DNA of 64,000 bases from Halichondria panicea (Eukaryota > Porifera > Demospongiae > Suberitida > Halichondriidae): positions 6,330,066 to 6,394,065 of the forward strand of contig NC_087386.1 in NCBI RefSeq assembly GCF_963675165.1, in the 5' to 3' direction. The first letter of the stretch is position 1. Every line of letters begins with the position of its first letter. Both the position numbers and the translations under genes were made by a program. Shown piece after piece: positions 166-55,841 of this stretch. The notes below the pieces were generated by a model. The model was not told where the DNA came from. It worked only from the letters and a program-made list of their open reading frames with translations, and did not search any database.

Positions 166-3100
166 ATTAGTCTTGTTGTGAACGTCAGCCTTGGCCTCCA
201 ACAACATTCTAACAACTCCACAGTGACCATTCTGACTGGCCATGTACAATGCGGTGGTTCCATTCTGTACAGAGTCAAGATAGTACAGATCCACTCATTA
301 CACAATATCACTCATACAATATCACATGACTATCTACACTAATGTCAGGGCAGAGGAGGTACGACACTTATTTAATTGAAATCTTCATTTGTGATGACGT
401 TTGTTTAGCTGGTAGTTAAGGTTACGGTATACTGTTCCATCCACGCTCAAATCTGCGTGGGTGTTCAATGTAGTTCAGCTAGAAAAATGGCTCTCATCTG
501 GCAATGGTTATTCTGCGTTAATTCCAGGCACCAGGAAATCCCTCCTTACCGTATACTCTGCTGTTTCTTATTATACGAATAAAGGGGCAGGGTGACTCGA
601 AGAGTTTTTCCCAAGAGAGTAAGTTACAACAAAGTTACGGCTATTTTTCTAGCTGTTTTTGTAGGCTAATATGGCGACTGTAGAGTAGTAACAAGGATAT
701 ATTTTTTGCTGTAAGGTCTCTATGAACAAGATCTCTTCGAGTCGCCCTCCAGTAAGTCTTCAGGCATCGAATACTGGTCAGAAAGACAACCTAGAAGCTA
801 TGCAGTCAACAAAATTTGACGACAAAATACTTGTTTTTCCAGCTGACCTCAGACCACTTCATTGGATTACAAGACATATAAACTCTGAGTTATTATTGTA
901 GCTAGCATTGTTCCATGTTCTCTTTCCATTGATAACCATTGCAAGTTACAAAAATAACGTTGTGATGAGAAATAAATATCTTATGAATCATTCATGAGCA
1001 ATTAGTATACTGTAACCTTAACCGCGACAAACTCTATAGGCCTGTAGAACGCTTGTAACTAGCTGTTTAGCTAGCTCTGTACGTTGCTCAAGGTCTCTAT
1101 GGCTAGCTATAGTGTTTCTCCAGCTGAGGTCCTGGTTAGAACTTGTCCAGATGTATTTGTAGCAAGCATATCTCCTAACTGAATAGGGTTCACTGGGGTT
1201 CAGCGACGGAAACAGTTAGATCTATGTCTAAACTATACTACCCTTGACCCTTAGTCACAGAATAACAGAGTTATTGTAGGGAACACACTACATTGAAAAC
1301 CAATGTAAAAAAGATTGGAATGCAATTAAAAGAGAGATCACGATGCTGTTGTTACTGGCTACATGCATACAGAGCTGTCTGGTTGTCCTGTGTTATATAG
1401 ACCATAAACCATAATTATAATTATGTATAGCAGCAACTGGAGGGTTAGTGTAAAAGCTGGAATGCAGATATAGAACGGAACATGTAGCTGGCTGTAATCG
1501 TCACATGACACCTGTTATTGGAAAGAGGATCAACAACTTACACACACTGTTGCACAGTGGTAGATATTGAGATAACAGTTTCATTGTTGAGAGTATAAAT
1601 GTGGAATTTGCTGACTCCACAACCCAATGTGTGTGGAAATCAATGGCAAAAGGCTTGGTCAGTGTGTCTCTTCAACACACATAAATCGTTTAAAGTTTCA
1701 CCGAGGGTCAAAACTTTGCAGGCATGCAGATAGAAGAAAGGTATAGCTTTGGAGTGTCCTGTATAGCTATAGACTTCACACTCCACCTTACTTTGGGCAC
1801 AACATAATTACTTCGCTAAGTCTATAGACACGTATAATTATGTGTATTTGTAATGTTCAATGTTGCTACTATAATTATACTCAGTCTACTTTTTTACATA
1901 ATAGTCTTCTAAAATTAGCTTTGTGTCTATAAAAGGATTCTGTAGCACTTTTTACAAGTATTTAAGTCATACTACACTAAAAAAATACAGAGCACCATCA
2001 GCAGCTCTCTTTTTAGCCATTCCATATTCCGTTCTATTCCGCATTCCAGCTTTACACTAACCCGCAACTGGACCAGCTAATCCACTACTCAATACACTAC
2101 TCTAGTAAATCTGACCTCATTTTGAATGTCAACTCTAGCTTTAGCAGCAATCAATAATTCCACTGCCCTCACATGACCATAACAAGCAGCTACATACAAT
2201 GCTGTCGTTCCATCCTGTACACAGTCAAGATAGTACAGATCCACTCATTACACAATATCACTCATACAATATCACATGACTATCTACACTAATATCAGGG
2301 CAGAGGAGGTACGACATTGTTTTTTAATTGAATATTTCATTGTGATGACGTTTACGGGTTCAGCGACATAAACAGTTAGATCTAGGTCTAAACTATACTA
2401 CCCTTGAGCCTTAGTCACAGAATAACAGAGTTATTGTTGGGAACACATTATATCGAAAACAACGTAAAAATTGTTTGAATATATCATGAGATGCGTGTCG
2501 TACCTCGATACACCAACTACCAGTGCTCTCTACACAAACATGACTAGCTCTGGTGTCTAATAATGGACCAGGTCAACAGAACATGGGGAGGCTCTGTGGC
2601 TAGTGGCCTTTGAGATGTGTGTACAGCTACTTACACTCACCTCTTTGGGTACATCAACATTGGCCCCAGCATCGATTAGGAGCTCCATACATTTCTGGTG
2701 ACCATAGAAACTGGCTACCCAAAGAGGGGTCTGTCCCGACTGTACATAGGAGGAAAACAATGTAAACAGCATGTTGTGGGAAATGTGTTTGTACAACAAA
2801 ACCAACCTTTGTCTGAGTGTTGACTGTAGCCTTGGCTGCTAAGAGGACCCTCACTATCTCATCATGTCCATTCCTACTGGCCCAGTAAAGAGCAGTAGCA
2901 CCATTCTGAGGAACAGAGATCAACCAACGGACATATTGCAGTATTCCCGTGGCCTCGTCTGCCTGATTGGGATCAGCCCCACACTCCAGTAGCTCCAGAA
3001 CCACACCCACATCACCCGTCTTACAAGCTTCCAGAAATGCCTGGGAGAAAATACATTATCAGTAAAATACACCCAAAAGATGGAATGACAAAAATTGTAT

Positions 3101-4218
3101 GTACATGTTATATACTGTTCAAGATTCTATAGCCACCCACACAGAAGTACCAGCATACAGTCGACACTAACACTATATAAGCTGACAATGCACATTTGAT
3201 ACCTCCACCCACTCACTCACGTACCATCCTGGGCTGCTGTAGACACAGCTTTCTGAGTGAGACAATCACTTCGTCAACTGATGGTCTCTGTTGAGGTCGG
3301 TCATGGAGGCAGCTAACAACAAGAGGATAAAGAGCGTGTTTCTCCCCCATTTTGTCACCATGGACAGCAGTGCTTCGACGCATGAGCTCCACCTTTCCAT
3401 CATCCACGTACTTAATAGCATCGTGAGTTAAGTACGAGACTTTAGGGAAATCACCGATAACAGTGTGAATTATGAGATGACCGAATGAGAAGATGTCCAG
3501 CTTGGTAGTGTAGGTGGGCTGTTCGTCATGACACTCGGGAGGCATGTATTTTGGATTTCCTGGGACGCTTGTCAGTATATGAGTCAATCTGTCTAGGTCA
3601 ACATACCTGCAAATGAATATTAGGTTTTACATGCCTGCCTTTATTTTCCCACATGTATCGAACTCATTTAAAAAATCCTTTGTTGCAAAAAAATACGTAC
3701 CTGGAGACACCCAGGTCTCCGATCTTGGCAGTGAGGTCCTCAGTGAGCAAGATGTTGGGAGCAGTGAGGTCACGATGGATGAGGGGAGGGGTCAGAGAGT
3801 GGAGATAGCGAAGGCCTTTGGATACATCATACAGGATATGGATTCTAGTGGCGATATTCGTGTCTCGATGGGTTTCAAGGAATTTAGCCAAGTCGGAATG
3901 AAGCCTCTCCATTATTAGACTGATGTCGTTCTTATCGCGGCCGTAATGGACTCCAACGAAACCGACTATGTTGGGGTGATGTAAAACACTCAGAATACGA
4001 CATTCATTTCTGAACTTGGTCACAATCCTCTCCCTCTGTCCAAGGGATTGCTCTTGGAGCAATATGTGATGCAGCTTCTTAGCAATGCAGTCTCTTCCAT
4101 TCACCGTCACTCTAAAGACACAGCCATAAGCCCCTGAGCCAGCTTTGTTCTCCTCTAGATTCAATCCTTCCACCTGGACCACCAGAGCATCAAGGTCACT
4201 TCTTGATTTTGTAGCCAT
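166..4218 (-). CDS. TKL-type protein kinase with C-terminal ankyrin repeats, copy 1 (3' end outside window)
   Basis: Minus-strand exons are 4218-3701, 3606-3225, 3040-2954, 2905-2807, 2739-2641, 2214-2116 and 264-166. The first two encode a protein kinase domain of about 300 residues: glycine loop GSGAYGCVF, ATP-binding lysine in CIAKK, catalytic loop HRDLTAPN, metal-binding DLG in place of DFG, and PPE in place of APE. The others encode ankyrin repeats, for example TPLWVASFYGHQKCMELLID. The 99-bp exons each hold one 33-residue repeat in phase 0/0. ATG 4218 is the first in-frame methionine and lies 243 bp from the divergent GT25 start. Probable role: cytoplasmic kinase with an ankyrin binding surface; partner unknown. 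Oddity: the donor after exon 3 reads GC instead of GT, but the 48-nt intron there is open and in frame, so retention would add 16 residues. The 264-2116 stretch is intron with no supported gene. Confidence 0.85.
2305..2508. repeat. Short inverted-repeat element with GAGGTACGACA ends
   Basis: The left end GAGGTACGACA is mirrored by TGTCGTACCTC at the right end, about 0.2 kb apart. The same arrangement recurs at about 16447, 20611-20789 and 40271-40465, always in ankyrin-gene introns. It may be a small MITE carried along by the segmental duplications. No clear target-site duplication was found. Confidence 0.4.
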
Positions 4219-4461
4219 TTGCACAGTTTACATATAAGGGGCATGACACGTGCTTACTGCGCATGCTCAGATGTCCAAGAATGGCAGTTAGCAATAACAT
4301 CCTTCTCTTGTCAAGATAAAGAAGCACAGTTCTCCATCAAAGAAGCGAGGCTGCCACACAGACTCTGAGAGCGTAGATTAAGGAAGGAGTAAGGCTCCAG
4401 AAGCAGTGAAATAATTACCAGTCAGAAATATCCATTAAATTCCCAGCTCCACGGATCATCT
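4219..4461. promoter_or_regulatory. Divergent intergenic region between kinase-ankyrin and GT25 genes
   Basis: Only 243 bp separate the kinase ATG (minus, 4218) and the GT25 ATG (plus, 4462), so promoters for both must lie here or within the genes. A related region in the fourth block (55831-56652) has been split by a 605-bp transposon. No TATA box was confidently identified. A bidirectional promoter is inferred from geometry only. Confidence 0.45.
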
Positions 4462-5727
4462 ATGAATAGTCTCTCGATACACTGGATTGCACTTGCTGTG
4501 TGCATAGCTCTCCTAGTGACTGCCATACCGTCTGTATACATGTTGGACAATGGAGACTCCTCGTTAGAAGCAGCTGAAGATCTGCCAAGTGTCTTCCTTG
4601 CTATTCTGGCTAGAAATTCAGCTCACATGCTACCCAACTTTCTCGGTTATCTGGAGAACTTGGACTATCCTAAAGACAGGATTTCATTGTGGTAAGTTGC
4701 ACCTGCCACTATGCATCATAATTAGATGTTACTCTATATCAGATGCAATAGTTTGCAGAATTTCTATTTCTGTTTCTTGCATGCAAACAAAACCCTATTA
4801 TGTTTGTACCAGCCCCACCCACCTATGAATATCATTAACTACACTGTAGGATCAGAACAGACCATAACGGTGACAACACCACGGCAATACTTGCTGAGTG
4901 GGCAGAAAACGTTCAGCTCTTGTACAAATCGGTGGACTTGAAGTCATCAGACGAGTGGCTGTATCCGAACCTTGACCCCTTCGAGGAGCATGACGAGAGG
5001 TTCGTCCATGTTGCCCAGCTGAGACAGAAAGGTCTGGAGGCGGCCAGGCGTTCAGGGGCAGACTACCTCTTTGTGAGTTATCAGTGTGACCATCTCTAGC
5101 CTCGTTCCCGGCCCATCTATTGTAACGACCTAGCTAGGCTATCTCTAGACGTACCATTATGATACAGTGAAACCTGTCTATAGTGGTCACCCTGTAAGCA
5201 GGTCACCCTCTATAATACAGCCAGGTTAATGAGTCCCAAAGTCTCCATAGCATGTGTTTGGACCTGTGTTAGCAGGCCACCTCTTTATTTCAACCACTGT
5301 TAGTCTGCCCAAGACAGTAGTAGATACAGTTTTAGTTATTGCAATTTTGGTATCCACAGTATCTAGCTCAGATTAACTATACAATTGTTGTTTATCCAGC
5401 GGCTAGACTGTGACAACTTTCTGGTGAACAACAGGACACTACGGATTCTGATGGATCAGCAAAGGTAAGTCAGTGCATGTACAGTCCATAGGGAGGGGAT
5501 AACTTGTCTATATGTACGAGGCTTGCACTGAATACATTATTTGCTGACCTGTGCACTTTATTATGGTACATGTATGTACATGTAGAACAAGTTTGAATTG
5601 TCCCCTTCCCTCCACTGTAGATCTGCCCATGCACATTCTGAACACCGAGGTGTTTGGGTTCATGGTCAAACCAGAGGACTATGAGAGCCTGGACCACGCT
5701 GCCTCCACTTTAAGCTGGACAACCTTG
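4462..5727 (+). pseudogene. GT25 procollagen galactosyltransferase-like, copy A, 5' exons
   Basis: Exons are 4462-4691, 4850-5072, 5400-5464 and 5621-5727. Exon 1 begins with a hydrophobic N-terminus (IALAVCIALLVTAIPSVY), a likely signal peptide or anchor for ER entry. It continues into the GT25 N-terminal domain (VFLAILARNSAHMLPNFLGYL, then RTDHNGDNT). Exon 3 carries LDCDN, which fits the DxD metal/nucleotide-sugar motif. The family galactosylates hydroxylysine of collagen in the ER lumen. The exons matching 48823-48898 and 49141-49345 of copy C are missing. The last exon is 107 bp instead of 117 bp; the 10-bp deletion shifts the frame. With array A and the exons from 12000 it forms one disrupted gene. 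Intron 2 holds an old MITE. Confidence 0.8.
5164..5335. repeat. Degenerate pogo/Tigger-like MITE in GT25 intron
   Basis: It begins TA-CAGTGAAACCTGTCTATAG and contains blocks GGTCACCCT and CCACTGTTAGTCTGCCCAAG. These match the better-preserved element at 12753-13127. Copies occupy the same intron near 27129, 48109 and 57338, so the insertion predates the gene duplications. The right terminus is eroded. Confidence 0.55.
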
Positions 5728-5965
5728 GTAAGCCTCTACTTGCCCACTAGACACTCTCTGTATCACTAATGTTTTGCGAGTATTAAACATGATTATGTGA
5801 ACTTGCCGAGGGTTGATCAATTCTCAACAATAAAATTGCAAAACCTAAATTATTACTAGTAAATACACACGATCCTCGCCAGAACCCGATAGTTAGATCT
5901 AGCAAAAGGTCTGCTCATTTGCTAAGGTTTTTCACCAACAAAATAATTATTCTAGTAATAGGCTC
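5728..5965 (+). other. GT25 intron upstream of array A
   Basis: This is AT-rich intron sequence following the copy A exon-6 donor. It contains a weak inverted repeat (TTTTGCGAG near 5773 and TTGCAAAACC near 5835), probably another decayed small element. The stretch is related to 24735-24910. I see no gene. Confidence 0.5.
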
Positions 5966-8900
5966 CCTATACTGCACTAGTGTGTGTGTTGTCTCCCCCC
6001 CACACAGTGGACCACCCCCCTATACTGCATTAGTGTGTGTGTTGTCTCCCCCCACACGGTGGACCACCCCCCTATACTGCATTAGTGTGTGTGTTGTCTC
6101 CCCCCCACACGGTGGACCACCCCCCTATACTGCATTAGTGTGTGTGTTGTCTTCCCCCCACACGGTGGACCACCCCCCTATACTGCATTAGTGTGTGTGT
6201 TGTCTCCCCCCACACGGTGGACCACCCCCCTATACTGCATTAGTGTGTGTATTGTCTCCCCCCACACAGTGGACCACCCCCCTATACTGCATTAGTGTGT
6301 GTGTTGTCTCCCCCCACACAAGAGACCACCCCCCTATACTGCATTAGTGTGTGTGTTGTCTCCCCCCACACAGTGGACCACCCCCTATACTGCATTAGTG
6401 TGTGTCTTGTCTCCCCCCACACAGTGGACCACCCCCCTATACTGCATTAGTGTGTGTGTTGTCTCCCCCCACACAGTGGACCACCCCCTATACTGCATTA
6501 GTGTGTGTCTTGTCTCCTCCCACACAGTGGACCACCCCCCTATACTGCATTAGTGTGTGTGTTGTCTCCCCCCACACAGTGGACCACCCCCCTGTAATCC
6601 ATTAGTGTGTGTGTTGTCTCCCCCACACAGTGGACCACCCCCCTGTACTCCATTAGTGTGTGTGTTTTCTTCCCCACACAGTGGACCACCCCCCTGTACT
6701 CCATTAGTGTGTGTGTTGTCTCCCCCACACAGTGGACCACCCCCCTGTACTGCATTAGTGTGTGACAGTGGGCCACCCCCCTATACTGCACTAGTGTGTG
6801 TGTTGTCTCCCCCCACACAGTGGACCACCCCCCTATACTGCACTAGTGTGTGTATTGTCTCCCCCCACACAGTGGACCACCCCCCTATACTGCACTAGTG
6901 TGTGTATTGTCTCCCCCCACACGGTGGACCACCCCCCTATACTGCATTAGTGTGTGTGTTGTCTCCCCCCACACGGTGGACCACCCCCCTATACTGCATT
7001 AGTGTGTGTGTTGTCTCCCCCCCACACGGTGGACCACCCCCCTATACTGCATTAGTGTGTGTGTTGTCTTCCCCCCACACGGTGGACCACCCCCCTATAC
7101 TGCATTAGTGTGTGTGTTGTCTTCCCCCCACACGGTGGACCACCCCCCTATACTGCATTAGTGTGTGTGTTGTCTCCCCCCCACATGGTGGACCACCCCC
7201 CTATACTGCATTAGTGTGTGTGTTGTCTCCCCCCACACAGTGGACCACCCCCCTATACTGCATTAGTGTGCGCGTTGTCTCCCCCCACACAGTGGACCAC
7301 CCCCCTATACTGCATTAGTGTGTGTGTTGTCTCCCCCCACACAGTGGACCACCCCCCTATACTGCATTAGTGTGTGAGTTTTCTCCCCCCACACGGTGGA
7401 CCACCCCCCTATACTGCATTAGTGTGTGTGTTGTCTCCCCCCACACAGTGGACCACCCCCTATACTGCATTAGTGTGTGTCTTGTCTCCCCCCACACAGT
7501 GGACCACCCCCCTATACTGCATTAGTGTGTGTGTTGTCTCCCCCCACACAGTGGACCACCCCCCTGTAATCCATTAGTGTGTGTTGTCTCCCCCACACAG
7601 TGGACCACCCCCCTGTACTCCATTAGTGTGTGTGTTTTCTTCCCCACACAGTGGACCACCCCCCTGTACTCCATTAGTGTGTGTGTTGTCTCCCCCACAC
7701 AGTGGACCACCCCCCTGTACTGCATTAGTGTGTGACAGTGGGCCACCCCCCTATACTGCACTAGTGTGTGTGTTGTCTCCCCCCACACAGTGGACCACCC
7801 CCCTATACTGCACTAGTGTGTGTGTTGTCTCCCCCCACACAGTGGACCACCCCCCTATACTGCACTAGTGTGTGTATTGTCTCCCCCCACACAGTGGACC
7901 ACCCCCCTATACTGCATTAGTGTGTGTGTTGTCTCCCCCCACACAGTGGACCACCCCCCTATACTGCACTAGTGTGTGTGTTGTCTCCCCCCACACAGTG
8001 GACCACCCCCCTGTACTGCATTAGTGTGTGTATTGTCTCCCCACACACAGTGGACCACCCCCCTATACTGCATTAGTGTATGTGTTGTCTCCCCCCACAC
8101 AGTGGACCACCCCCCTATACTGCACTAGTGTGTGTGTTGTCTCCCCCCACACAGTGGACCACCCCCCTGTACTGCATTAGTGTGTGTATTGTCTCCCCAC
8201 ACACAGTGGACCACCCCCTATACTGCATTAGTGTATGTGTTGTCTCCCCCCACACAGTGGACCACCCCCCTATACTGCATTAGTGTGTGTATTGTCTCCC
8301 CCCACACAGTGGACCACCCCCCTATACTGCACTAGTGTGTGTATTGTCTCCCCCCACACAGTGGACCACCCCCCTATACTGCATTAGTGTGTGTGTTGTC
8401 TCCCCCCACACAGTGGACCACCCCCCTATACTGCATTAGTGTGTGTGTTGTCTCCCCCCACACAGTGGACCACCCCCCTATACTGCACTAGTGTGTGTAT
8501 TGTCTCCCCCCACACAGTGGACCACCCCTATACTGCATTTTGTGTGCGTTGTCTCCCCCCACACAGTGGACCACCCCCCTATACTGCACTAGTGTGTGTA
8601 TTGTCTCCCCCCACACAGTGGACCACCCCCCTATACTGCACTAGTGTGTGTATTGTCTCCCCCCACACAGTGGACCACCCCCCTGTACTGCATTAGTGTG
8701 TGTATTGTCTCCCCCCACACAGTGGACCACCCCCCTATACTGCACTAGTGTGTGTATTGTCTCCCCCCACACAGTGGACCACCTCCCTATACTGCATTAG
8801 TGTGTGTGTTGTCTCCCCCCACACAGTGGACCACCCCCCTATACTGCATTAGTGTGCGTGTTGTCTCCCCCCACACAGTGGACCACCTCCCTATACTGCA

Positions 8901-11900
8901 TTAGTGTGTGTGTTGTCTCCCCCCACACAGTGGACCACCCCCCTATACTGCATTAGTGTGCGTGTTGTCTCCCCCCACACAGTGGACCACCTCCCTATAC
9001 TGCATTAGTGTGTGTGTTGTCTCCCCCCACACAGTGGACCACCCCCCTATACTGCACTAGTGTGCGTGTTGTCTCCCCCCACACAGTGGACCACCCCCCT
9101 ATACTGCATTAGTGTGCGTGTTGTCTCCCCCCACACAGTGGACCACCCCCCTATACTGCATTAGTGTGCGTGTTGTCTCCCCCCACACAGTGGACCACCT
9201 CCCTATACTGCATTAGTGTGCGTGTTGTCTCCCCCCACACAGTGGACCACCTCCCTATACTGCATTAGTGTGCGTGTTGTCTCCCCCCACACAGTGGACC
9301 ACCCCCTACATGTATACTGCATTAGTGTGTGTATTGTCTCCCCCCACACAGTGGACCACCCCCTATACTGCATTAGTGTGCGTGTTGTCTCCCCCCACAC
9401 AGTGGACCACCCCCCTATACTGCATTAGTGTGCGTGTTGTCTCCCCCCACACAGTGGACCACCCCCCCTATACTGCACTAGTGTGTGTGTTGTCTCCCCC
9501 CACACAGTGGACCACCCCCCCTATACTGCATTAGTGTGCGTGTTGTCTCCCCCCACACAGTGGACCACCCCCCCTATACTGCATTAGTGTGTGTGTTGTC
9601 TCCCCCCACACAGTGGACCACCCCCCTATACTGCATTAGTGTGTGTGTTGTCTCCCCCCACACAGTGGACCACCCCCCTATACTGCATTAGTGTGCGTAT
9701 TGTCTCCCCCCACACAGTGGACCACCCCCCTATACTGCATTAGTGTGCGTATTGTCTCCCCCCACACAGTGGACCACCCCCCTATACTGCATTAGTGTGC
9801 GTATTGTCTCCCCCCACACAGTGGACCACCCCCCTATACTGCATTAGTGTGTGTATTGTCTCCCCCCACACAGTGGACCACCCCCCTATACTGCATTAGT
9901 GTGTGTGTTGTCTCCCCCCACACCGTGGACCACCCCCCTATACTGCATTAGTGTGCGTGTTGTCTCCCCCCACACGGTGGACCACCCCCTATACTGCATT
10001 AGTGTGTGTGTTGTCTCCCCCCACACGGTGGACCACCCCCCTATACTGCATTAGTGTGCGTGTTGTCTCCCCCCACACGGTGGACCACCCCCCTATACTG
10101 CATTAGTGTGTGTGTTGTCTCCCCCCACACGGTGGACCACCCCCCTATACTGCATTAGTGTGCGTGTTGTCTCCCCCCACACAGTGGACCACCCCCCCTA
10201 TACTGCATTAGTGTGCGTATTGTCTCCCCCCACACAGTGGACCACCCCCCTGTACTGCATTAGTGTGCGTGTTGTCTCCCCCCACACAGTGGACCACCCC
10301 CCTATACTGCATTAGTGTGCGTATTGTCTCCCCCCACACAGTGGACCACCCCCCTATACTGCATTAGTGTGTGTATTGTCTCCCCCCACACAGTGGACCA
10401 CCCCCCTATACTGCATTAGTGTGTGTATTGTCTCCCCCCACACAGTGGACCACCCCCCTATACTGCATTAGTGTGTGTGTTGTCTCCCCCCACACAGTGG
10501 ACCACCCCCCTATACTGCATTAGTGTGTGTGTTGTCTCCCCCCACACAGTGGACCACCCCCCTATACTGCATTAGTGTGTGTATTGTCTCCCCCCACACA
10601 GTGGACCACCCCCCTATACTGCATTAGTGTGTGTATTGTCTCCCCCCACACAGTGGACCACCCCCCTATACTGCATTAGTGTGTGTATTGTCTCCCCCCA
10701 CACAGTGGACCACCCCCCTATACTGCATTAGTGTGTGTGTTGTCTCCCCCCACACAGTGGACCACCCCCCTATACTGCATTAGTGTGTGTATTGTCTCCC
10801 CCCACACAGTGGACCACCCCCCTATACTGCATTAGTGTGTGTATTGTCTCCCCCCACACAGTGGACCACCCCCCTATACTGCATTAGTGTGCGTGTTGTC
10901 TCCCCCCACACGGTGGACCACCCCCTATACTGCATTAGTGTGTGTGTTGTCTCCCCCCACACAGTGGACCACCCCCCTATACTGCATTAGTGTGCGTGTT
11001 GTCTCCCCCCACACAGTGGACCACCCCCCTATACTGCATTAGTGTGCGTGTTGTCTCCCCCCACACGGTGGACCACCCCCCTATACTGCATTAGTGTGTG
11101 TGTTGTCTCCCCCCACACGGTGGACCACCCCCCTATACTGCATTAGTGTGCGTGTTGTCTCCCCCCACACAGTGGACCACCCCCCTATACTGCATTAGTG
11201 TGCGTGTTGTCTCCCCCCACACAGTAGACCACCCCCCCTATACTGCACTAGTGTGTGTATTGTCTCCCCCCACACAGTGGACCACCCCCCTATACTGCAT
11301 TAGTGTGCGTGTTGTCTCCCCCCACACAGTGGACCACCCCCCTATACTGCATTAGTGTGCGTGTTGTCTCCCCCCACACAGTGGACCACCCCCCTATACT
11401 GCATTAGTGTGCGTGTTGTCTCCCCCCACACAGTGGACCACCCCCCTATACTGCATTAGTGTGCGTGTTGTCTCCCCCCACACAGTGGACCACCCCCTAT
11501 ACTGCATTAGTGTGCGTGTTGTCTCCCCCCACACAGTGGACCACCCCCCTATACTGCATTAGTGTGCGTGTTGTCTCCCCCCACACAGTGGACCACCCCC
11601 CTATACTGCATTAGTGTGCGTGTTGTCTCCCCCCACACAGTGGACCACCCCCTATACTGCATTAGTGTGTGTGTTGTCTCCCCCCACACAGTGGACCACC
11701 CCCCTATACTGCACTAGTGTGTGTGGTCTCCCCCCACACAGTAGACCACCCCCCTATACTGCATTAGTGTGCGTGTTGTCTCCCCCCACACAGTGGACCA
11801 CCCCCTATACTGCATTAGTGTGTGTGTTGTCTCCCCCCACACAGTAGACCACCCCCCTATACTGCATTAGTGTGCGTGTTGTCTCCCTCCACACAGTGGA

Positions 11901-11999
11901 CCACCCCCCTATACTGCATTAGTGTGCGTGTTGTCTCCCTCCACACAGTGGACCACCCCCCTATACTGCATTAGTGCGCGTATTGTCTCCCCCCCACAG
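5966..11999 (+). repeat. Minisatellite array A, ~52-bp unit derived from GT25 intron/exon-7 boundary
   Basis: About 116 head-to-tail units of 52 bp. A unit comprises TGGACCACCCCCCTATACTG, then CA(T/C)TAG, a TG-rich run, TTGTCTCCCCCC and ACACAG. Variants alternate at fixed positions (CACAG/CACGG, ATACTG/GTACTG, CATTAG/CACTAG, five to seven C). A higher-order repeat is visible: the rare TGTGACAGTGGGCCACC unit recurs at about 6761 and 7731, a 970-bp offset. The final unit is continuous with GT25 exon 7 at 12000. Open frames inside are repeat artefacts: 52 is not a multiple of 3, so they cycle through frames. Confidence 0.97.
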
Positions 12000-12315
12000 T
12001 GGACCACCCCCCTATACTGTACAGTCAGTACATCTCCAGACCACCCCCTGTCAAGAACAACTTGGGGTTGGACGCGGTAAGCTGTCTCTACTATTACAGT
12101 TATGTTGTATGTGTACGGAAATCATAAAAGTTCACTGATAATTTCCAAACAATATTTGGTAGGTGTTCATGATTGGGCTAGTACGGAGGCCAGAAAGAAG
12201 GAACCGGATGATTTTAAGCCTGGACAAGCTCAACTTCAACTACACCCTCTTTGATGCTGTCAATGGAAGGTGAGAGAAAATTAATAAGTATACATCGTAT
12301 GGAGTAAGGTTTTAG

Positions 12316-12475
12316 ATAGTGGCTTATCACGTCCAACCCCAAATTGTCATTGAGAGAGGGTAGTCTTGAGATGTACTGCATGGTGTAGAGTATAGGTTCA
12401 CTGTGTGTGAGGGGAGACATAACTGGCTGTACAATACAGAGGGATGGGGGAGGAGACAATACACACTAATTGATA
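12316..12475 (-). repeat. Diverged inverted copy of GT25 exon 7 and its acceptor inside intron 8
   Basis: Read on the minus strand, this stretch encodes QYISRLPSLNDNLGLDV, closely resembling exon 7 (QYISRPPPVKNNLGLDA). It is preceded by TGTCTCCCCTCACACACAG and by a second partial unit (ATTAGTGTGTATTGTCTCC). Acceptor, exon and part of the array have thus been duplicated in inverted orientation about 0.3 kb downstream. The transcript could fold exon 7 back onto this copy. The same structure is present in copy C (53405-53570) and tripled in copy B (32141-32446). Confidence 0.75.
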
Positions 12476-12752
12476 CACAAGGATGTGGCGGGGAACTCAT
12501 ATTTAAAAGAACCTCTTTTGTTTATTTTATCTTTGGCCACTACAGACAGTTGAATCAGAGCTACCTGGACAGTATGGGTATCAAGTACCTACCTGGCTGG
12601 AAGGACCCTTGGAGAGAACGACCTATGACCTTTGGAGAGGTCGGCTGTTTCCTTAGTCTCCACACGATATGGCAGCAGGTGAGTGGGCGTTAGTGGACAC
12701 TTGTTGATGTGTACAGAAAGTATTGCTACCTGTTGCATTGTGGGCACTTGTA

Positions 12753-13127: not shown

Positions 13128-13528
13128 TACCTCTCTTGCCCCCCAGATGATGACGGAGGGTCTGGATCAAATCCTGATTCTGGAGGATGATGTCGTGTTT
13201 GAGCCCTAGCTACTTCCGACATGACCTAACTAGAGTGCTGGAAGAGTCCAATCGGATCACACCAAACTGGGACCTCATGTGAGAGCTCTGGAGATATACA
13301 GTCTATTATTATACGCAATGTCCGTATCTCGTTAGTCCAATCTTTGCTTACAAGTAGTTCAGTGCAACACCATAAATAAGGCACACCTTATAATCAGCTG
13401 ACAGTAGTCTAGAAGTAAGAAAATTGCTGTCTAATTTCCTTGAACTATAACCATGCTAGTTTGGATTGTCCAACTTACAACAAATTAACGCTAGATTGTT
13501 GTATATAGAGATGCATTTCATGATACAG

Positions 13529-20000: not shown

Positions 20001-23000
20001 TTTGTAATGTTCAATGTTGCTACTATAATTATACTCAGTCTACTTTTTTACATAATAGTCTTCTAAAATTAGCTTTGTGTCTATAAAAGGATTCTGTAGC
20101 ACTTTTTACAAGTATTTAAGTCATACTACACTAAAAAAATACAGAGCACCATCAGCAGCTCTCTTTTTAGCCATTCCATATTCCGTTCCATTCCGCATTC
20201 CAGCTTTTACACTAACCCGCAACTGGACCAGCTAATCCACTACTCAATCCACTACTCTAGTAAATCTCACCTTATTTTGAATGTCAACTCCAGCCTTGGC
20301 AGCAATCAATAATTCCACTGCCCTCACATGACCATTCTGAGCAGCTACCCACAACGCTGTGGTTCCAGTCTGTACAGAATCAAGATAGTACAGATCCACT
20401 CATTACACAATATCACTCATACAATATCACATGACTATCTACACTAATATCAGGGTACGACATGTGTGCCTCGATTAGGCTAATTGCCTCTGCAATACCG
20501 TTGAGCGTGGGTGGATAATCGAGGCGTGGTTACACCCACGCTCAACGGTATTGCAGAAGCAATTAGCCTAATTGAGGCACGCTAGTCGTACCTCCTCTGA
20601 TGTCAGGGCAGAGGAGGTACGACATTGTTTTTTAATTGAATATTCCATTGTGATGACGTTTACAGGTTCAGTGACGGAAACAGTTAGATCTAGGTCTAAA
20701 CTATACTACCCTTGAGCCTTAGTCAAAGTTATTGTGCATTACATTGGAATGCAATTAAAAGAGAGATCACGAGATGCGTGTCGTACCTCGGTACACCAAC
20801 TACCAGTGCTCTCTACACAAACATGACTAGCTCTGGTGTCTAATGGACCAGGTCAACAGAACATGGGGAGGCTCTGTGGCTAGTGGCCTCTGAGATGTGT
20901 GTATAGTAGCCTCGATTCCAGTTCGCATTAAAATACAGCCTGGTACCTTCAGAATATGGGTAATCGTACTACGAATGTAAAACCTTAGTACCCATAATTT
21001 AGTCCCTTTACTAAGATCCGTAATATTTTATCTCCATACTGAGTTCCGTGAAGCTGTATTTATTGCTTAGAAGGCTTGAACACTAGTTTGGAGGCTCTCA
21101 TCTACATCTACGTCTACGATGGTCCTATAGCCAGGTTGTCTTCGCAAGAAGCAGTCAAGAGGCACCATACACTTCCCATAGCCTGTACAGATCCAAGCTA
21201 AGATATCCTGACCATACAGCCGTCATAGAGGTGGATGAGAACCTATTTTGGCATCAGACTAGTGTGAAAGCCTTCTGGAACAACGCAATAGAGAGCTAAG
21301 CTGATGTACATAGATAGAAAGAAAGAAAAGAGGGGATCCCCAGATTCTGGAGAATAAACTATCACATGCTCACTATCACCATGCAATAAGTACCAGGCCA
21401 TACTTTAATTGGCCTGGAATCGAGGCTATGTGTATATAGCTACTTACACTCACCTCTTTGGGTACATCAACATAGGCCCCAGCATCGATTAGGAGCTCCA
21501 TACATTTCTGGTGACCATAGAAACTGGCTGCCCAAAGAGGAGTCGCTCCCGACTGTACATAGGAGGAAAACAATGTAAACAGCATGTTGTGGGAAATGTA
21601 TTTGTACAACAAAACCAACATTGGTCTGAGTGTTGACTGTAACCTTGGCTGCTAAGAGGACCCTCACTATCTCATCATGTCCATTCCTACTGGCCCAGTA
21701 AAGAGCAGTCCAACCATTCTGTAGAGACAATATCATCAACCAACGGACATATTGGCACTGTAGACAGTATTCCCTCACCTTGTCTGCCTGGTTGGGATCA
21801 GCCCCACACTCCAGTAGCTCCAGAACCACACCCACATCACCAGTCTTACAAGCCTCCAAAAATTCCTGGGAGAAAATACACTCTCAGTAAACACACCCAA
21901 AAGACGGAATGACACAAATTGTATGTACATGTTATATACTGTTCAAGATTCTATAGCCACCCACACAGAAGTACCAGCATACAGTCGACACTAACACTAT
22001 ATAAGCTGACAATGCACATTTGATACCTCCACCCACTCACTCACGTACCATCCTGGGGTGCTGTAGACACAGCTTTCTGAGTGAGACAATCACTTCGTCA
22101 ACTGATGGTCTCTGTTGAGGTCGGTCATGGAGGCAGCTAACAACAAGAGGATAAAGAGCGTGTTTCTCCCCCATTTTGTCACCATGAACAGCAGTGCTTC
22201 GACGCATGAGCTCCATATTCCCATCATCCACGTGCTTGATAACCTCAGGAGTAAAGTAAGAGACTTTAGGGAAGTCACCGATAACAGTGTGAATGATGAG
22301 ATGACCGAATGAGAAGATGTCCAGCTTGGTAGTGTAGATGGGCGGCTCCACATGACACTCGGGAGGCATATAGCTTGGATTTCCCGGGATATTTGTCAGA
22401 ACATGAGTCAATCTCTCCAGATCAACATACCTGCAAATGAATATTAGGTTTTACATGTCTGCCTTTATTTTCCCACATGTATCGAACTCATTTAAAAAAT
22501 CCTTTGTTGCAAAAAAATACGTACCTGGAGACACCCAGGTCTCCGATCTTGGCAGTGAGGTCCTCAGTGAGCAGGATGTTGGGAGCAGTGAGGTCACGAT
22601 GGATGAGGGGAGGGGTCAAAGAGTGGAGATAGTGAAGGCCCTTGGATACATCATACAGGATATGGATTCTAGTGGCGATATTCATGTCTCGATGGGTTTT
22701 AAGGAATTTGGCCAAGTCGGAATGAAGCCTCTCCATTATTAGACTGATGTCGTTCTTATCGCGGCCGTAATGGACTCCAACGAAACCGACTATGTTGGGG
22801 TGATCCAGACCGCTCAGAATATGACACTCATGACGGAAATTTGTTAAAATCCTCTCCCTCTGTCCAAGGGATTCCTCTTGGAGCAATAGGTGGTGTACCT
22901 TCTTAGCAATGCAGTCTCTTCCATTCACCGTCACTCTAAAGACACAGCCATAAGCCCCTGAGCCAGCTTGGTTCTCCTCTAGACCCAATCCTTCCACCTG

Positions 23001-23036
23001 GACCACCAGAGCATCAAGGTCACTTCTTGCAGCCAT
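14323..23036 (-). CDS. TKL-type protein kinase with ankyrin repeats, copy 2 (complete)
   Basis: Thirteen exons: 23036-22525, 22430-22049, 21865-21779, 21718-21620, 21552-21454, 20369-20271, 18386-18288, 17556-17458, 17388-17290, 16296-16198, 14770-14672, 14619-14521 and 14391-14323 (stop TGA). They predict about 646 residues: a ~298-residue kinase domain, a 29-residue linker repeat, nine 33-residue ankyrin repeats and a short final repeat ending CELLH. Kinase motifs GSGAYGCVF, CIAKK, HRDLTAPN, DLG and YMPPEC are all present. Every exon after the kinase is a multiple of three, in phase 0/0. The 60-nt intron at 21719-21778 is itself open and in frame. Introns hold several MITEs and a CA microsatellite. 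Probably an active cytoplasmic kinase with an ankyrin binding array; ligand unknown. Orientation is head-to-head with the chimera at 23.2 kb. Confidence 0.87.
15366..15566. repeat. Degenerate TACCGTATAGCG-type MITE
   Basis: This is the eroded counterpart of the well-preserved element at 33667-33880. The right end GCGCGCTATACGGTA is clear, while the left end has drifted (ATCGTAAGCGCAAAATGTTC). It sits at the equivalent position of the ankyrin gene intron. Confidence 0.5.
17025..17086. repeat. (CA)n microsatellite
   Basis: An uninterrupted CA dinucleotide run of about 30 units lies in an intron of kinase-ankyrin copy 2. The equivalent intron of copy 3 has no such run. Confidence 0.95.
17651..18211. 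mobile_element. Mutator-like MITE with TAGCCTCGTTCCCAGGCC ends
   Basis: The 561-bp element starts TAGCCTCGTTCCCAGGCC and ends GGCCTAGGAACGAGGCTA, an 18-bp imperfect terminal inverted repeat. It is flanked by ACACAAAGG and ACACAGAGG, a 9-bp target duplication with one mismatch. Nine-base duplications are typical of Mutator-like elements. Internal open frames at 17611-17944 and 18022-18282 resemble no known transposase, so it is probably non-autonomous. An ortholog is at 34895-35455. Confidence 0.7.
19124..19351 (-). other. Unrecognised 75-codon open frame in ankyrin gene intron
   Basis: The open frame (includes APFIYIWTSSNQD and ELAKQLVTSVLQAYRVC) recurs at 36380-36607, 38351-38578 and, shortened, at 39752-39934. 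Copy 1 has an internal deletion near 1150. I do not recognise the protein. Differences among copies are mostly amino-acid-changing (F/L, R/C, A/T), so selection on protein is not apparent. It may be a dead exon carried by duplication. Confidence 0.3.
20464..20582. repeat. Near-perfect hairpin insertion (two ~50-bp arms)
   Basis: Arms 20464-20513 and 20533-20582 are inverted copies with only a few mismatches and enclose a 19-nt loop. The core is GCAATACCGTTGAGCGTGGG and its complement. Paralogous introns (for example near 2293) lack it, so it is a later insertion. A fold-back transposable element is the likely identity. Confidence 0.8.
20611..20789. repeat. Short inverted-repeat element with GAGGTACGACA ends
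   Basis: The same element type as at 2305-2508, with ends GAGGTACGACA and TGTCGTACCTC. It follows directly after the hairpin insertion. Confidence 0.4.
20907..21428. mobile_element. Mutator-like MITE with TAGCCTCGATTCCAG ends
   Basis: The 522-bp element begins TAGCCTCGATTCCAG and ends GGCCTGGAATCGAGGCTA. Flanks TGTGTATAG and TGTGTATAT support a 9-bp target duplication. The uninterrupted site is visible near 2613-2625 (GATGTGTGTACAGCTAC). The ortholog at 40582-41105 shows that insertion preceded duplication of blocks 2 and 3. No transposase frame is present. Confidence 0.7.
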
Positions 23037-23266
23037 TTTGGACTTTTGCAGAAAAAGGGGAGTATTTCTTTGTGTTCATTGGTCATATGACACATATTCC
23101 TACTGCGCATGCCCAAATAATTCGTATTCAGTAACCGCGGTGTATTTCAGAGGCTTAATGATCTTTACCAAATCAGACACATAAATACTAAATTCAAGGA
23201 CTTGCATCAGAGGACTTGCATGATGTGTCTTGGACCATGGCGAATGGAGAATCTAAAGACCTTTTG

Positions 23267-27890: not shown

Positions 27891-30800
27891 ATTAGTGTGT
27901 GTGTTGTCTCCCCCCACACAGTGGACCACCACCCTATACTGCTGTGTTGTCTCCCCCCACACAGTGGACCACCCCCCTATACTGCATTAGTGTGCGTGTT
28001 GTCTCCCCCCACACAGTGGACCACCTCCCTATACTGCATTAGTGTGTGTATTGTCTCCCCCCACACAGTGGACCACCCCCCTGTACTGCATTAGTGTGTG
28101 TGTTGTCTCCCCCCACACAGTGGATCACCCCCCTATACTGCATTAGTGTGTGTATTGTCTCCCCCCACACAGTGGATCACCCCCCTATACTGCATTAGTG
28201 TGTGTATTGTCTCCCCCCACACAGTGGACCACCCCCCTGTACTGCATTAGTGTGTGTGTTGTCTCCCCCCACACAGTGGACCACCCCCCTATACTGCATT
28301 AGTGTGCGTGTTGTCTCCCCCCACACAGTGGACCACCCCCCTATACTGCATTAGTGTGTGTATTGTCTCCCCCCACACAGTGGATCACCCCCCTATACTG
28401 CATTAGTGTGTGTATTGTCTCCCCCCACACAGTGGACCACCCCCCTGTACTGCATTAGTGTGTGTGTTGTCTCCCCCCACACGGTGGACCGCCCCCCTAT
28501 ACTGCATTAGTGTGCGTGGTGTCTCCCCCCACATGGTGGACCACCCCCCTATACTGCGTTAGTGTGCGTGTTGTCTCCCCCCACACAATGGACCGCCCCC
28601 CTATACTGCATTAGTGTGCGTGTTGTCTCCCCCCACACAGTGGGCCCACCCCCCTATACTGCATTAGTGTGCGTGTTGTCTCCCCCCACACAGTGGACCA
28701 CCCCCCTATACTGCACTAGTGTGCATGTTGTCTCCCCCCACACAGTGGACCACCCCCTATACTGCATTAGTGTGTGTGTTGTCTCCCCCCACACAGTGGA
28801 CCACCCCCTATACTGCATTAGTGTGTGTTGTCTCCCCCCACACAGTGGACCACCCCCCTATACTGCATTAGTGTGTGTTGTCTCCCCCCACACAGTGGAC
28901 CACCCCCCTATACTGCATTAGTGTGCGTGTTGTCTCCCCCCACACAGTGGACCACCCCCCTATACTGCATTAGTGTGTGTTGTCTCCCCCCACACAGTGG
29001 ACCACCCCCCTATACTGCACTAGTGTGTGTGTTGTCTCCCCCCACACAGTGGACCACCCCCCTATACTGCATTAGTGTGCATGTTGTCTCCCCCCACACA
29101 GTGGACCACCCCCCTATACTGCATTAGTGTGTGTTGTCTCCCCCCACACAGTGGACCACCCCCCTATACTGCATTAGTGTGCATGTTGTCTCCCCCCACA
29201 CAGTGGACCACCCCCCTATACTGCATTAGTGTGTGTTGTCTCCCCCCACACAGTGGACCACCCCCCTATACTGCATTAGTGTGCGTATTGTCTCCCCCCA
29301 CACAGTGGACCACCCCCCTGTACTGCACTAGTGTGCGTGTTGTCTCCCCCCACACAGTGGACCACTCCCCCTATACTGCATTAGTGTGCATGTTGTCTCC
29401 CCCCACACAGTGGACCACCCCCCTATACTGCACTAGTGTGCGTGTTGTCTCCCCCCACACAGTGGGCCCACCCCCCTATACTGCATTAGTGTGCGTGTTG
29501 TCTCCCCCCACACAGTGGACCACCCCCCTATACTGCACTAGTGTGCATGTTGTCTCCCCCCACACAGTGGACCACCCCCTATACTGCATTAGTGTGTGTG
29601 TTGTCTCCCCCCACACAGTGGACCACCCCCTATACTGCATTAGTGTGTGTTGTCTCCCCCCACACAGTGGACCACCCCCCTATACTGCATTAGTGTGCGT
29701 GTTGTCTCCCCCCACACAGTGGACCACCCCCCTATACTGCATTAGTGTGTGTTGTCTCCCCCCACACAGTGGACCACCCCCCTATACTGCACTAGTGTGT
29801 GTGTTGTCTCCCCCCACACAGTGGACCACCCCCCTATACTGCATTAGTGTGCATGTTGTCTCCCCCCACACAGTGGACCACCCCCCTATACTGCATTAGT
29901 GTGTGTTGTCTCCCCCCACACAGTGGACCACCCCCCTATACTGCATTAGTGTGCATGTTGTCTCCCCCCACACAGTGGACCACCCCCCTATACTGCATTA
30001 GTGTGTGTTGTCTCCCCCCACACAGTGGACCACCCCCCTATACTGCATTAGTGTGCGTATTGTCTCCCCCCACACAGTGGACCACCCCCCTGTACTGCAC
30101 TAGTGTGCGTGTTGTCTCCCCCCACACAGTGGACCACTCCCCCTATACTGCATTAGTGTGTGTGTTGTCTCCCCCCACACAGTGGACCACCCCCCTATAC
30201 TGCATTAGTGTGCATGTTGTCTCCCCCCACACAGTGGACCACCCCCCTATACTGCACTAGTGTGTGTGTTGTCTCCCCCCACACAGTGGACCACCCCCCT
30301 ATACTGCATTAGTGTGCGTATTGTCTCCCCCCACACAGTGGACCACCCCCCTATACTGCACTAGTGTGCATGTTGTCTCCCCCCACACAGTGGACCACTC
30401 CCCTACACTGCATTAGTGTGTGTATTGTCTCCCCCCACACAGTGGACCACCCCCCTATACTGCACTAGTGTGTGTGTTGTCTCCCCCCACACAGTGGACC
30501 ACCCCCCTATACTGCATTAGTGTGCGTGTTGTCTCCCCCCACACAGTGGACCACCCCCCTATACTGCATTAGTGTGTGTGTTGTCTCCCCCCACACAGTG
30601 GACCACCCCCCTATACTGCATTAGTGTGTGTATTGTCTCCCCCCACACAGTGGACCACCCCCCTATACTGCATTAGTGTGTGTGTTGTCTCCCCCCACAC
30701 AGTGGACCACCCCCCTATACTGCATTAGTGTGTGTGTGTTGTCTCCCCCCACACAGTGGACCACCCCCCTATACTGCATTAGTGTGCGTGTTGTCTCCCC

Positions 30801-31829
30801 CCACACAGTGGACCACCCCCCTATACTGCATTAGTGTGTGTGTGTTGTCTCCCCCCACACAGTGGACCACCCCCCTATACTGCATTAGTGTGTGTGTGTT
30901 GTCTCCCCCCACACAGTGGACCACCCCCCTATACTGCATTAGTGTGTGTGTTGTCTCCCCTCACACAGTGGACCACCCCCCTATACTGCATTAGTGTGTG
31001 TGTGTTGTCTCCCCCCACACAGTGGACCACCCCCCTATACTGCATTAGTGTGTGTGTTGTCTCCCCTCACACAGTGGACCACCCCCCTATACTGCATTAG
31101 TGTGTGTGTTGTCTCCCCCCACACAGTGGACCACCCCCTATACTGCACTAGAGTGTGTGTATTGTCTCCCCCCACACAGTGGACCACCCCCCTACACTGC
31201 ATTAGTGTGTGTGTTGTCTCCCCCACACAGTGGACCACCCCCTATACTGCACTAGAGTGTGTGTATTGTCTCCCCCACACAGTGGACCACCCCCCTACAC
31301 TGCATTAGTGTGTGTGTTGTTTCCCCCACACAGTGGACCACCCCCTATACTGCATTAGTGTGTGTATTGTCTCCCCCCACACAGTGGACCACCCCCCTAT
31401 ACTGCATTAGTGTGCGTGTTGTCTCCCCCCACACGGTGGACCACCCCCCTATACTGCATTAGTGTGTGTATTGTCTCCCCTCACACAGTGGACCACCCCC
31501 CTATACTGCATTAGTGTGTGTGTTGTCCCTCCCCACACAGTGGACCACCCCCCTATACTGCACTAGTGTACCACCCCCCTATACTGCACTAGTGTGTGTG
31601 TATTGTCTCCCCCCACACAGTGGACCACCCCCCTATACTGCATTAGTGTGTGTGTTGTCTCCCCCCACACGGTGGACCACCCCCCTATACTGCATTAGTG
31701 TGTGTATTGTCTCCCCACACACAGTGGACCACCCCCCTACACTGCATTAGTGTGCGTGTTGTCTCCCCCCACACAGTGGACCACCCCCCTATACTGCATT
31801 AGTGTGCGTGTTGTCTCCCCCCCACACAG
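27891..31829 (+). repeat. Minisatellite array B, ~52-bp unit
   Basis: About 76 units of the array-A type, starting after TGTATCCATTAGTG. A higher-order repeat is marked by the rare AGTGGGCCCACC unit at 28639 and 29461 (about 822 bp apart). Near 30700-31050 some units have an extra TG, and some units lack one C, so frames drift. The longest open frame, 290 codons at 29027-29899, is a repeat artefact. Confidence 0.97.
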
Positions 31830-32098
31830 TGGACCACCCCCTATACTGTACAGTCAGTACATCTCCAGACCACCCCCTGTCAAGAACAACTTGGGGTTGG
31901 ACGCGGTAAGCTGTCTCTACTATTACAGTTATGTTGTATGTGTACGGAAATCATAAAAGTTCACTGATAATTTCCAAACAATATTTGGTAGGTGTTCATG
32001 ATTGGGCTAGTACGGAGGCCAGAAAGAAGGAACCGGATGATTTTAAGCCTGGACGAGCTCAACTTCAACTACACCCTCTTGGATGCTGTCGATGGAAG
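31830..32098 (+). pseudogene. GT25 exons 7-8, copy B (frameshifted)
   Basis: Exon 7 (31830-31905) begins at the AG of the last minisatellite unit. It has five C instead of six, so it is 76 bp rather than 77 and the frame is lost, with a stop early in exon 8 (31992-32098). Exons 9 and 10 are missing. A tandem repeat of the inverted exon-7 copy follows instead. Confidence 0.8.
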
Positions 32099-32140: not shown

Positions 32141-32446
32141 TTAGATAGTGGCTTATCACGTCCAACCCCAAATTGTCATTGAGAGAGGGTAGTCTTGAGA
32201 TGTACTGCATGGTGTAGAGTATAGGTTCAGTGTGTGTGAGGGGAGACATAACTGGCTGTACAATACATATCTACATTTAGATAGTGGCTTATCATGTCCA
32301 ACCCCAAATTGTGATTGAGAGAGGGTAGTCTTGAGATGTACTGCATGGTGTAGAGTATAGGTTCACTGTGTGTGAGGGGAGACATAACTGGCTGTACAAT
32401 ACATATCTACATTTAGATATTGGCTTATCACGTCCAACCCCAAATT
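32141..32446. repeat. 136-bp tandem repeat of the inverted exon-7 copy
   Basis: The phrase TTAGATAGTGGCTTATCACG recurs, with small changes, at 32141, 32277 and 32413, a period of 136 bp and about 2.2 copies. The unit equals the inverted exon-7-like segment that is single copy at 12316 and 53405. Confidence 0.85.
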
Positions 32447-45814: not shown

Positions 45815-46604
45815 CTCACATACTCCGTTGTCTGCAACACTGTCACTGACTTCCCCAAAAGAAAGCTGCCTTCTAGTTTTTCGCTTACTAGCTAGACACT
45901 ATTTTACATTAATTTTTTATATCATTATTGTGTGACACAACAAACCTGGAATGTCTATGATGTGCCATAGTCTGTGTGGTGCACTCCATCTTGTGGGACT
46001 CCATGTGGTTTGACATGGAAATTGTGGTCAAGTTTTGCAAGCTCATAATTTTTGCTTCAAAGCTGGGTACAAGCAAAATGTTTTTGCAAAGTAATGCTCA
46101 AAGCTTACAAATTTTGTTAATACCCATCACGTAGCTTCACTTTGTTAGCAAAATTTTTTGTCACTTGTTCTAGAGGAGTACTATCATATGACATAGAGTG
46201 CTATTTGAGCTCGTGGAGCCAAACTTATAAAAGCTTAACAACTATTTTCGTGTATGCATGTAGACTAGGAACAGTTCTACGTGCCTGAGCTCGTTCGTGA
46301 GTGTATGTACAATACTTCGTAGAATATAAGTGTGTGAATATTTAATTACTTTTAGTATTAGCTTCATTTTGATAGCGGAAGTTGAACTTCCGTTGCAAAT
46401 AAATTTGTGTACTTATATAGTACTTCCGGAATCTTGGCGGAACAACTGTGCCAACCATTCCCACAATTTCTGGGAATCAGGATATTTTAGTAAAATATCA
46501 GTAAAATTATTACATAACAGTTCCGCACCACTTACAGTATTCTGAAACCACATTGTCCGTTTTATATTTATGTGCAAGCTCAGCTAGCTAGTGCCTGTTT
46601 TGTG

Positions 46605-47057
46605 ATGGCTAGTAGTCAGTCAAGTTTCTCTGGTGCTGTGAAGCACGCTCTGGCGTGTATCGGCAACAAAGACCTTGTTCTTAAGCCAAAGCAAGTGGAA
46701 GTGTTGGAGGCAGTCTACAATGGCAGCGACACTTTCGTATGGTTCCCTACTGGATATGGCAAAAGCCTTTGCTATCAACTGCTGCCATTCATGTTGGACT
46801 TCAGGCGTGGCAGTACCGAAGCCCAAGACACACATCGGTATTGTGTAATTGTAATATCACCTCTACTCGCTCTCATGGTGGACCAGGTCTCCTCCTTACG
46901 CAGTCGAGGTGTGTCTGCTGCCATATTGTCTGGCAATGCTGGTGTAGACAAGCAATATCTTGCTAGTGAGGCTGACTTTCTTACAGAGAGCTGCACACTC
47001 ATCGTTGAGGATGTTGACGACCTTCTCAATGATGCACGCTTTCAAGGATGGCTCTGA
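46605..47057 (+). pseudogene. RecQ-like DEAD-box helicase, N-terminal fragment
   Basis: The frame has the Q-motif-like LKPKQVEVLEAV, Walker A in FPTGYGKSLCYQLLPFM, and motif Ia in VISPLLALMVDQVSSLRSRG, as in RecQ 3'-5' DNA helicases. It stops after about 150 residues, before a DEAH box. Thus motifs II-VI are missing and ATPase activity is not expected. ATG 46605 (MASSQSS) is the first in-frame ATG. It lies downstream of the transposon-type gene on the opposite strand, and could be a retrogene or an element-borne helicase. The 47058-47740 stretch downstream has no recognised coding sequence. Confidence 0.7.
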
Positions 47058-49516: not shown

Positions 49517-49617
49517 GTAAGCCCTTCCCCCTTAAGGCTGCGGTGTCATCTGCTCTTTGTTAGTATAGCCAGTAGCCATCTCAGTGTGTGCTGATGTAGC
49601 TCCATTGTTGCTGTGAA
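49517..49617 (+). other. Intron flank before array C
   Basis: Same flank as 27702-27805, with the empty target site TTAGTATAGCC near 49560. It is joined to the array at GCTGTGAAC, so the 3' part of the flank seen in block 2 is missing. No gene. Confidence 0.6.
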
Positions 49618-52600: not shown

Positions 52601-53096
52601 AGTGTGCGTGTTGTCTCCCCCCACACAGTGGACCACCCCCCTATACTGCACTAGTGTGCGTGTTGTGTCCCCCCACACAGTGGACCACCCCCCTATACTG
52701 CATTAGTGTGTGCGTTGTGTCCCCCCACATAGTGGACCACCCCCCTATACTACATTAGTGTGCGTGTTGTCTCCCCCCACACAGTGGACCACCCCCCTAT
52801 ACTGCACTAGTGTGCGTGTTGTCTCCCCCCACACAGTGGACCACCCCCCTATACTGCACTAGTGTGCGTGTTGTCTCCTCCCACACAGTGGACCACCCCC
52901 CTATACTGCATTACTGTGTGTATTGTCGCCCCCACACAGTGGACCACCCCCCCTATACTGCATTAGTGTGTGTGTTGTCTCCCCCCCACACAGTGGACCA
53001 CCCCCCTATACTGCATTAGTGTGTGTATTGTCTCCCCCCACACAGTGGACCACCCCCTATACTGCATTAGTGTGCGTGTTGTCTCCCCCCACACAG
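49618..53096 (+). repeat. Minisatellite array C, ~52-bp unit
   Basis: About 67 units. A run of nearly identical GTACTGCACTAGTGTGCG units spans about 51370-51960, which suggests recent homogenisation. A truncated junction GTGGACCTAGTG occurs at about 52196 and 52437, a ~241-bp higher-order repeat. The last acceptor feeds exon 7 of the open GT25 copy. Confidence 0.97.
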
Positions 53097-55830: not shown

Positions 55831-55841
55831 TTGCACAGTTA

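Follow-up and report, generated by a model that had tools for sequence, protein, structure and literature searches.

We analysed a 64,000-nucleotide stretch of the genome of the sponge Halichondria panicea (C10:6330066-6394065, contig NC_087386.1 of assembly GCF_963675165.1; hereafter the window), in which copies of a gene similar to human COLGALT1 carry long tandem arrays in front of exon 7. Four arrays, A to D, are built from the same unit and are arranged before exon 7 in the same way. Our searches covered the 131-Mb genome; the DNA searches score the best candidates only, and weak matches could be missed.

The repeated unit is an intron-exon boundary

Self-analysis of the window resolved array A into a 52-bp unit repeated head to tail and ending inside exon 7. 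The start of that exon was placed by homology: LENLVDHPPILYSQYISRP, encoded from the last unit, lies on human COLGALT1 LEVMVKHPPAEPSRFISAP, and thus exon 7 begins at CACAG/TGG of that unit (the slash marks the junction), which is the true intron 6/exon 7 boundary. In the intact paralogue described below, the exon 6-7 junction reads LENL/VDHPPILYSQYISRP and aligns with the same human residues. A sequence-only reading of this DNA had proposed that the array is a minisatellite in which each unit joins a 3' splice site to the opening codons of a GT25 exon, and that exon 7 starts at the last unit of array A. Both proposals are borne out, the first by the match of the unit to the boundary and by the human alignment, the second by the junction of the intact paralogue.

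Anchored on TGGACC, array A has 117 boundaries, which read CACAG (95), GACAG (2), CACGG (17), or CACAA, CATGG and CACCG (1 each). The acceptor AG is therefore retained in 97/117 and missing from 20/117. Two features that characterize 'mirage' minisatellites are thus present: a tandem repeat that spans an exon-intron boundary, and splice signals in many but not all units.

When read in the phase of the gene, every AG-bearing decoy of array A ran into a stop (96/96), with 62 giving exactly VDHPPILH-stop, as the sequence-only reading had anticipated. The last of the 97 AG-bearing boundaries was the sole one open to the donor. The same reading had counted more than a hundred decoy acceptors, each leading to a premature stop; the stops hold throughout, but the decoys number 96, because 20 of the 117 units have no AG. 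Its statement that a decoy would splice in phase from exon 6 fits the phase of the gene but has no meaning for a protein of the array A copy itself, which has a 10-bp deletion in exon 6, lacks exons 4 and 5 and meets a stop inside exon 6.

One intact gene and its decayed copies

A single complete gene was found among the copies, outside the window on the minus strand of C10 (L002; C10:5667500-5675500, 5.670 Mb). It has 13 exons, 12 GT-AG introns and an open frame of 616 residues. Residues 37-594 match human COLGALT1 (E = 2e-159), and the protein scores for a GT25 domain (PF01755, E = 5e-32). This full-length similarity, together with the domain, marks it as a COLGALT1-like (procollagen galactosyltransferase) gene. 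Its intron 6 is 316 bases long, exon 6 and exon 7 are 0.23 kb apart, and the boundary is present in three units: two decoys, both giving VDHPPILH-stop in the phase of the gene (2/2), ahead of the true acceptor. In the genome search, exons 11-13 were matched only here (exon 10 at 17 places, exons 4-5 at 8 places including this gene), and thus the gene is whole in none of the other copies found; none of them extends past exon 10.

The copy that contains array A (copy A) cannot encode the enzyme with its exons as they stand (Table 1). Since its joined exons stop upstream of the array and essential exons are missing, the stops behind the decoys carry no coding consequence there. Among the copies examined, the intact gene alone is a host able to make the protein.

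The other copies in the window are also incomplete. Copy B has part of exon 2 only, no matched exon 1 and a 1-base deletion in exon 7, whilst copy D has lost 18 bases in exon 1 and 13 in exon 2 and has a shortened exon 6. On the strand of array D, the next exon 7 downstream lies at C10:6397919 (L015), where CACGG replaces the acceptor. Each exon 7 was paired with the nearest exon 6 on the same strand; for this exon 7 that is 6387846-6387986 (window 57781-57921), which is exon 6 of copy D, and the two are therefore paired at a distance of ~9.9 kb. Copy C has an open frame across exons 2-10, and its exon 1 and exons 11-13 are absent from the matches.

The genome searches gave at least 20 exon-7 copies; among the matches listed, all lie on C10, from 4.58 to 6.41 Mb. 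Exons 6 and 7 lie 0.23-9.9 kb apart in 19 of the 20; the remaining copy (L001) could not be paired with any exon 6. We counted boundaries in the 274-346 bases upstream of each exon 7 and found one unit in L001, three in the intact gene and at least four in the other 18. The unit number thus differs between paralogues, the only sequences compared, from 1 to 3 to many.

Table 1. Features of the arrays and gene copies (positions in the window, except in the last row)
Feature	Position	Strand	Remarks
Copy A exon 1	4462-4691	+	97% to the intact gene
Copy A exon 2	4850-5072	+	Matched to the exons of the intact gene
Copy A exon 3	5400-5464	+	Exons 4 and 5 not found between exon 3 and exon 6
Copy A exon 6	5621-5727	+	10-bp deletion; stop here on joining exons 1-2-3-6
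Array A	5965-12019	+	~117 copies of the 52-bp unit (end of intron 6, acceptor, opening 20 bases of exon 7)
Copy A exon 7	12000-12076	+	Begins in the last unit at CACAG/TGGACC; donor GTAAGC; placed by homology
Copy A exon 8	12163-12269	+	Matched to the exons of the intact gene
Inverted partial exon 7, copy A intron 8	12330-12396	-	~80% identity; 12322-12396 in self-comparison
Copy A exon 9	12546-12678	+	Matched to the exons of the intact gene
Copy A exon 10	13147-13278	+	4-base insertion; exons 11-13 not found in copy A
Array B	27943-31848	+	Unit of array A; precedes exon 7 of copy B (31830-31905, 1-base deletion)
Inverted copies, copy B	32159-32225, 32296-32361	-	Self-comparison
Array C	49617-53116	+	Unit of array A; precedes exon 7 of copy C (53097-53173)
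Inverted copy, copy C	53421-53487	-	Self-comparison
Array D	58367-64000	+	Unit of array A; extends beyond the window end
Inverted copy, L001	about 5056-5164 of L001		Self-comparison

Upstream of copy C, where exon 1 would be expected, there is an open frame that appears helicase-like from its translation (window 46518-47057 and 47797 onward), and a fusion with this frame, or replacement by it, is a possible origin of the 5' end of this copy. Intron 2 of copy C holds a second tandem repeat, of 74 bp (window 48135-48301), whose sequence also occurs as a repeat in intron 2 of the intact gene. Minus-strand open frames upstream of the gene copies (window 2654-4227, 21467-23075 and 55459-55893) are kinase- and ankyrin-like, labels again taken from the translations, and were apparently duplicated together with the copies.

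Origin of the unit

The single-unit copy L001, at 4.578 Mb, is the most diverged of the set (81% over positions 6-309 of a 309-base query). It is a fragment, with no exon 6 match upstream and an exon 8 that aligns with +1 and -1 changes. Its one boundary reads ...CTTGACTGTGTATCCATTAGTGTGTGTATTGTCTCCCCCCCACACACAG/TGGACCACCCCCCTATACTGTACAGTCAG. Here CATTAG is intron sequence starting 35 bases before the exon, and the exon itself reads TATACTG/TACAGTCAG. Because the two halves stand apart in this copy, TACTGCATTAG in the arrays looks like a duplication junction. The sequence-only reading had it that CATTAG became TACAGTCAG in the last unit; the direction was probably the reverse, since the repeat would have joined TATACTG back to CATTAG, leaving TACAGTCAG as the old exon. 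Given the divergence of L001, its single unit is probably the ancestral state.

Constraint and variation of the units

We compared the last units of 18 array copies with the internal units of arrays A-D. The AG was kept in 16/18 last units (89%) versus 248/331 internal units (75%; Fisher p = 0.26), and the six-C frame in 14/18 versus 278/331 (p = 0.51). Selection on the last acceptor and on the reading frame was therefore not significant in either test.

Variability was scored on the 244 units of exactly 52 bases out of 368 cut. Only five sites (3, 11, 14, 31 and 47) varied in more than 10% of them. Site 31, the acceptor A, was lost in 27% and was the third most variable of the 52. Losses of the decoy AG cluster in runs along the arrays, each pair of arrays has 4 to 12 unit types in common, and adjacent units match exactly more often than after shuffling in A, C and D, though not in B. 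Such runs, shared types and identical neighbours are what slippage or unequal exchange would produce where selection is not strong.

Inverted copies of exon 7

Inverted copies of the intron 6 tail and exon 7 lie in intron 8 of A, B, C and L001, with main matches at 76-86% identity; a comparison that took in L001, the intact gene and copies A-C found no such match in the intact gene. The predicted RNA duplex with exon 7 was -113 kcal/mol in copy A (shuffle mean -49), -207 in L001 (-71) and -45 in the intact gene (-42). By this prediction the inverted copy could pair with exon 7 in RNA. As a driver of expansion it was rejected: among the copies compared it does not track unit number, because it is present at one unit (L001) and in the long arrays of A-C, with no match at three.

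Branch-point motifs

We searched for YTNAY 15-58 nt before the exon start of AG-bearing units and found it in 0/97 (A), 1/69 (B), 1/56 (C) and 0/51 (D), or 2/273 in all; the one in array B is TTGAC in the flank ahead of the first unit. In the intact gene, the last unit alone has a 4-bp insertion that creates a branch-point-like TTAAT (TATTAATTG) at a distance of 19 nt from the exon. Of the last units of the 20 copies, this is the only one with TTAAY (1/20; 0/19 of the others), and TTAAC is present in introns 1 and 2 of the same gene. An older candidate, TTGAC, lies outside the unit, ~42 nt ahead of the exon start of the first decoy, and thus each duplication would have separated it further from the true acceptor.

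As a control we used 39 other acceptors of this genome, 28 from predicted introns of CCT genes (profile matches in 8 stretches, leaving out neighbouring chaperonin matches that did not join within set limits) and 11 from the intact gene. YTNAY preceded 28/39, compared with 26.9 in shuffles, and 11/39 had none. Since the motif is not enriched at these acceptors, its absence from the units was discarded as proof that the decoys are silent.

In the last 60 bases of 40 intron ends (28 predicted, from L018-L025, and 12 of the intact gene), 13 had a run of at least six C or at least five CA. Such runs may predispose splice junctions in this genome to repeat growth.

Discussion

The arrays are, with high probability, a mirage-type minisatellite, a scar of gene duplication grown by repeat turnover in decayed COLGALT1-like copies. 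A tandem duplication over the intron 6/exon 7 boundary of a COLGALT1-like gene would have joined exon base 20 (TATACTG) to CATTAG, ~32 bases before the exon, giving a 52-bp unit of C-rich pyrimidine tract, CACAG and 20 exon bases. Slippage or unequal exchange would later have lengthened the repeat, and segmental duplication would have spread parts of the gene, together with the repeat, across ~1.8 Mb of C10, where arrays in the duplicates could grow to several kb with no constraint visible to the tests used. Every unit except the last would then lie in intron, and a decoy used in the phase of the gene would lead to VDHPPILH-stop. The anatomy and homology of the arrays, the series from 1 to 3 to many units, the decay of copies A, B and D and the lack of significant constraint are direct observations; from these we infer the order of events, the role of slippage or unequal exchange and the absence of function.

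Repeats of this kind are known from amphioxus. According to PMC3087553, the mirage minisatellites of Adh3 and of the globin genes BflGb6 and BflGb9 are, as here, tandem repeats across an intron-exon boundary with splice signals in many units. They comprise 3-6 units of 150-160 bp (BflGb6) or units of 10-72 bp (Adh3), vary in unit number, and leave mRNA splicing undisturbed as judged by reverse transcription PCR. The sponge repeat differs in its 52-bp unit, in being present as 1, 3 or >100 units, and in that the long arrays of the window sit in truncated paralogues. A 5' counterpart is the intronic variable number tandem repeat of human ABCA7, where, according to PMC5954066, the first bases of the repeat form the splice donor of an exon, unit number runs from about 12 to 427, and retention of a unit brings a premature stop into one isoform; there a donor is involved, the gene is functional and effects on splicing were measured, whereas here it is an acceptor. 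Intron gain by tandem genomic duplication (PMC4974935) likewise involves intragenic duplication around introns, but here an old intron was lengthened and no new intron is shown. The array is thus a further member of the mirage kind, distinguished by its paralogue series; no earlier description of it was found in the literature searched, which was partial in coverage.

Premature stops from decoy use would trigger nonsense-mediated decay. The arrays might accordingly be a regulatory device, in which decoys draw splicing away from the true exon 7 acceptor and so limit output of the enzyme. The tract and AG common to most decoys and the true site would suit such a device, and so would the in-phase stops, which follow each of the 96 AG decoys in array A and both of those in the intact gene. 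However, the long arrays of the window sit in copies without essential exons, the intact gene has two decoys only, and last units show no significant constraint, and we consider this explanation improbable. For copy A in particular, the suggestion of the sequence-only reading that decoys tune expression of its gene is not supported, given the stop in exon 6, the exons not found (4-5 and 11-13) and the lack of significant constraint; this copy is best explained by the ordinary turnover of a repeat within decayed duplicates. A scar of gene duplication is more likely than a control switch, whilst the regulatory-decoy idea may still apply to the intact gene outside the window. More improbable still, to the point of being barely credible, is an origin outside the gene, in which a separate satellite or mobile repeat inserted at the boundary and provided its acceptor. 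One unit does occur in many copies, a unit-containing query giving 1059 matches, most of them unit-sized among the matches listed. Yet the exon part of the unit encodes residues that align with human COLGALT1, the boundary already exists in single-unit L001, and every match listed is on C10.

A different proposal concerns the intact gene: its three-unit repeat may have been costly, and the cost may have been offset when the last unit gained a branch point through the insertion giving TATTAATTG. The restriction of TTAAY to this one last unit, the near absence of YTNAY from AG-bearing units of A-D (one of the two lying outside the repeat) and the TTAAC of introns 1 and 2 would fit. Against this, the lack of enrichment at the control acceptors means that absence of the motif does not show decoys to be weak, the 273 units all derive from one sequence and so are not independent cases, L001 also lacks YTNAY in its single unit, and a 4-bp insertion is one event. 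We regard the proposal as unlikely, although less so than a regulatory device. Somewhat more doubtful is its extension to all copies, in which array growth moves the true exon start off the branch point and poisons the gene, since each duplication copies the acceptor and leaves the branch point behind, with the intact gene escaping through TATTAATTG in its last unit and its repeat held to three units. If true, the intact gene would be an experiment of nature, run by evolution, on spliceosomal choice between 3' splice sites of almost the same sequence.

Several points weigh against a mirage-type scar. Judged from its open frame, copy C might be expressed in truncated form, and decoys may be used in RNA. 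L001 could have contracted to one unit instead of preserving the ancestral state, and there may be additional exon-7 copies beyond those found. The constraint tests, on 18 copies, have little power, and the acceptor is somewhat commoner in last units.

For annotation, the arrays are a warning that exon 7 in these copies can easily be placed thousands of bases away from its true position. The part that deserves experiment is the intact three-unit gene. Within one genome, close paralogues, one of them an intact gene, carry a single 3' splice site in 1, 3 and >100 tandem copies, and therefore offer a clean natural series for studying acceptor choice among near-identical sites. The series could also be used to ask how splice-junction minisatellites grow after selection lifts.

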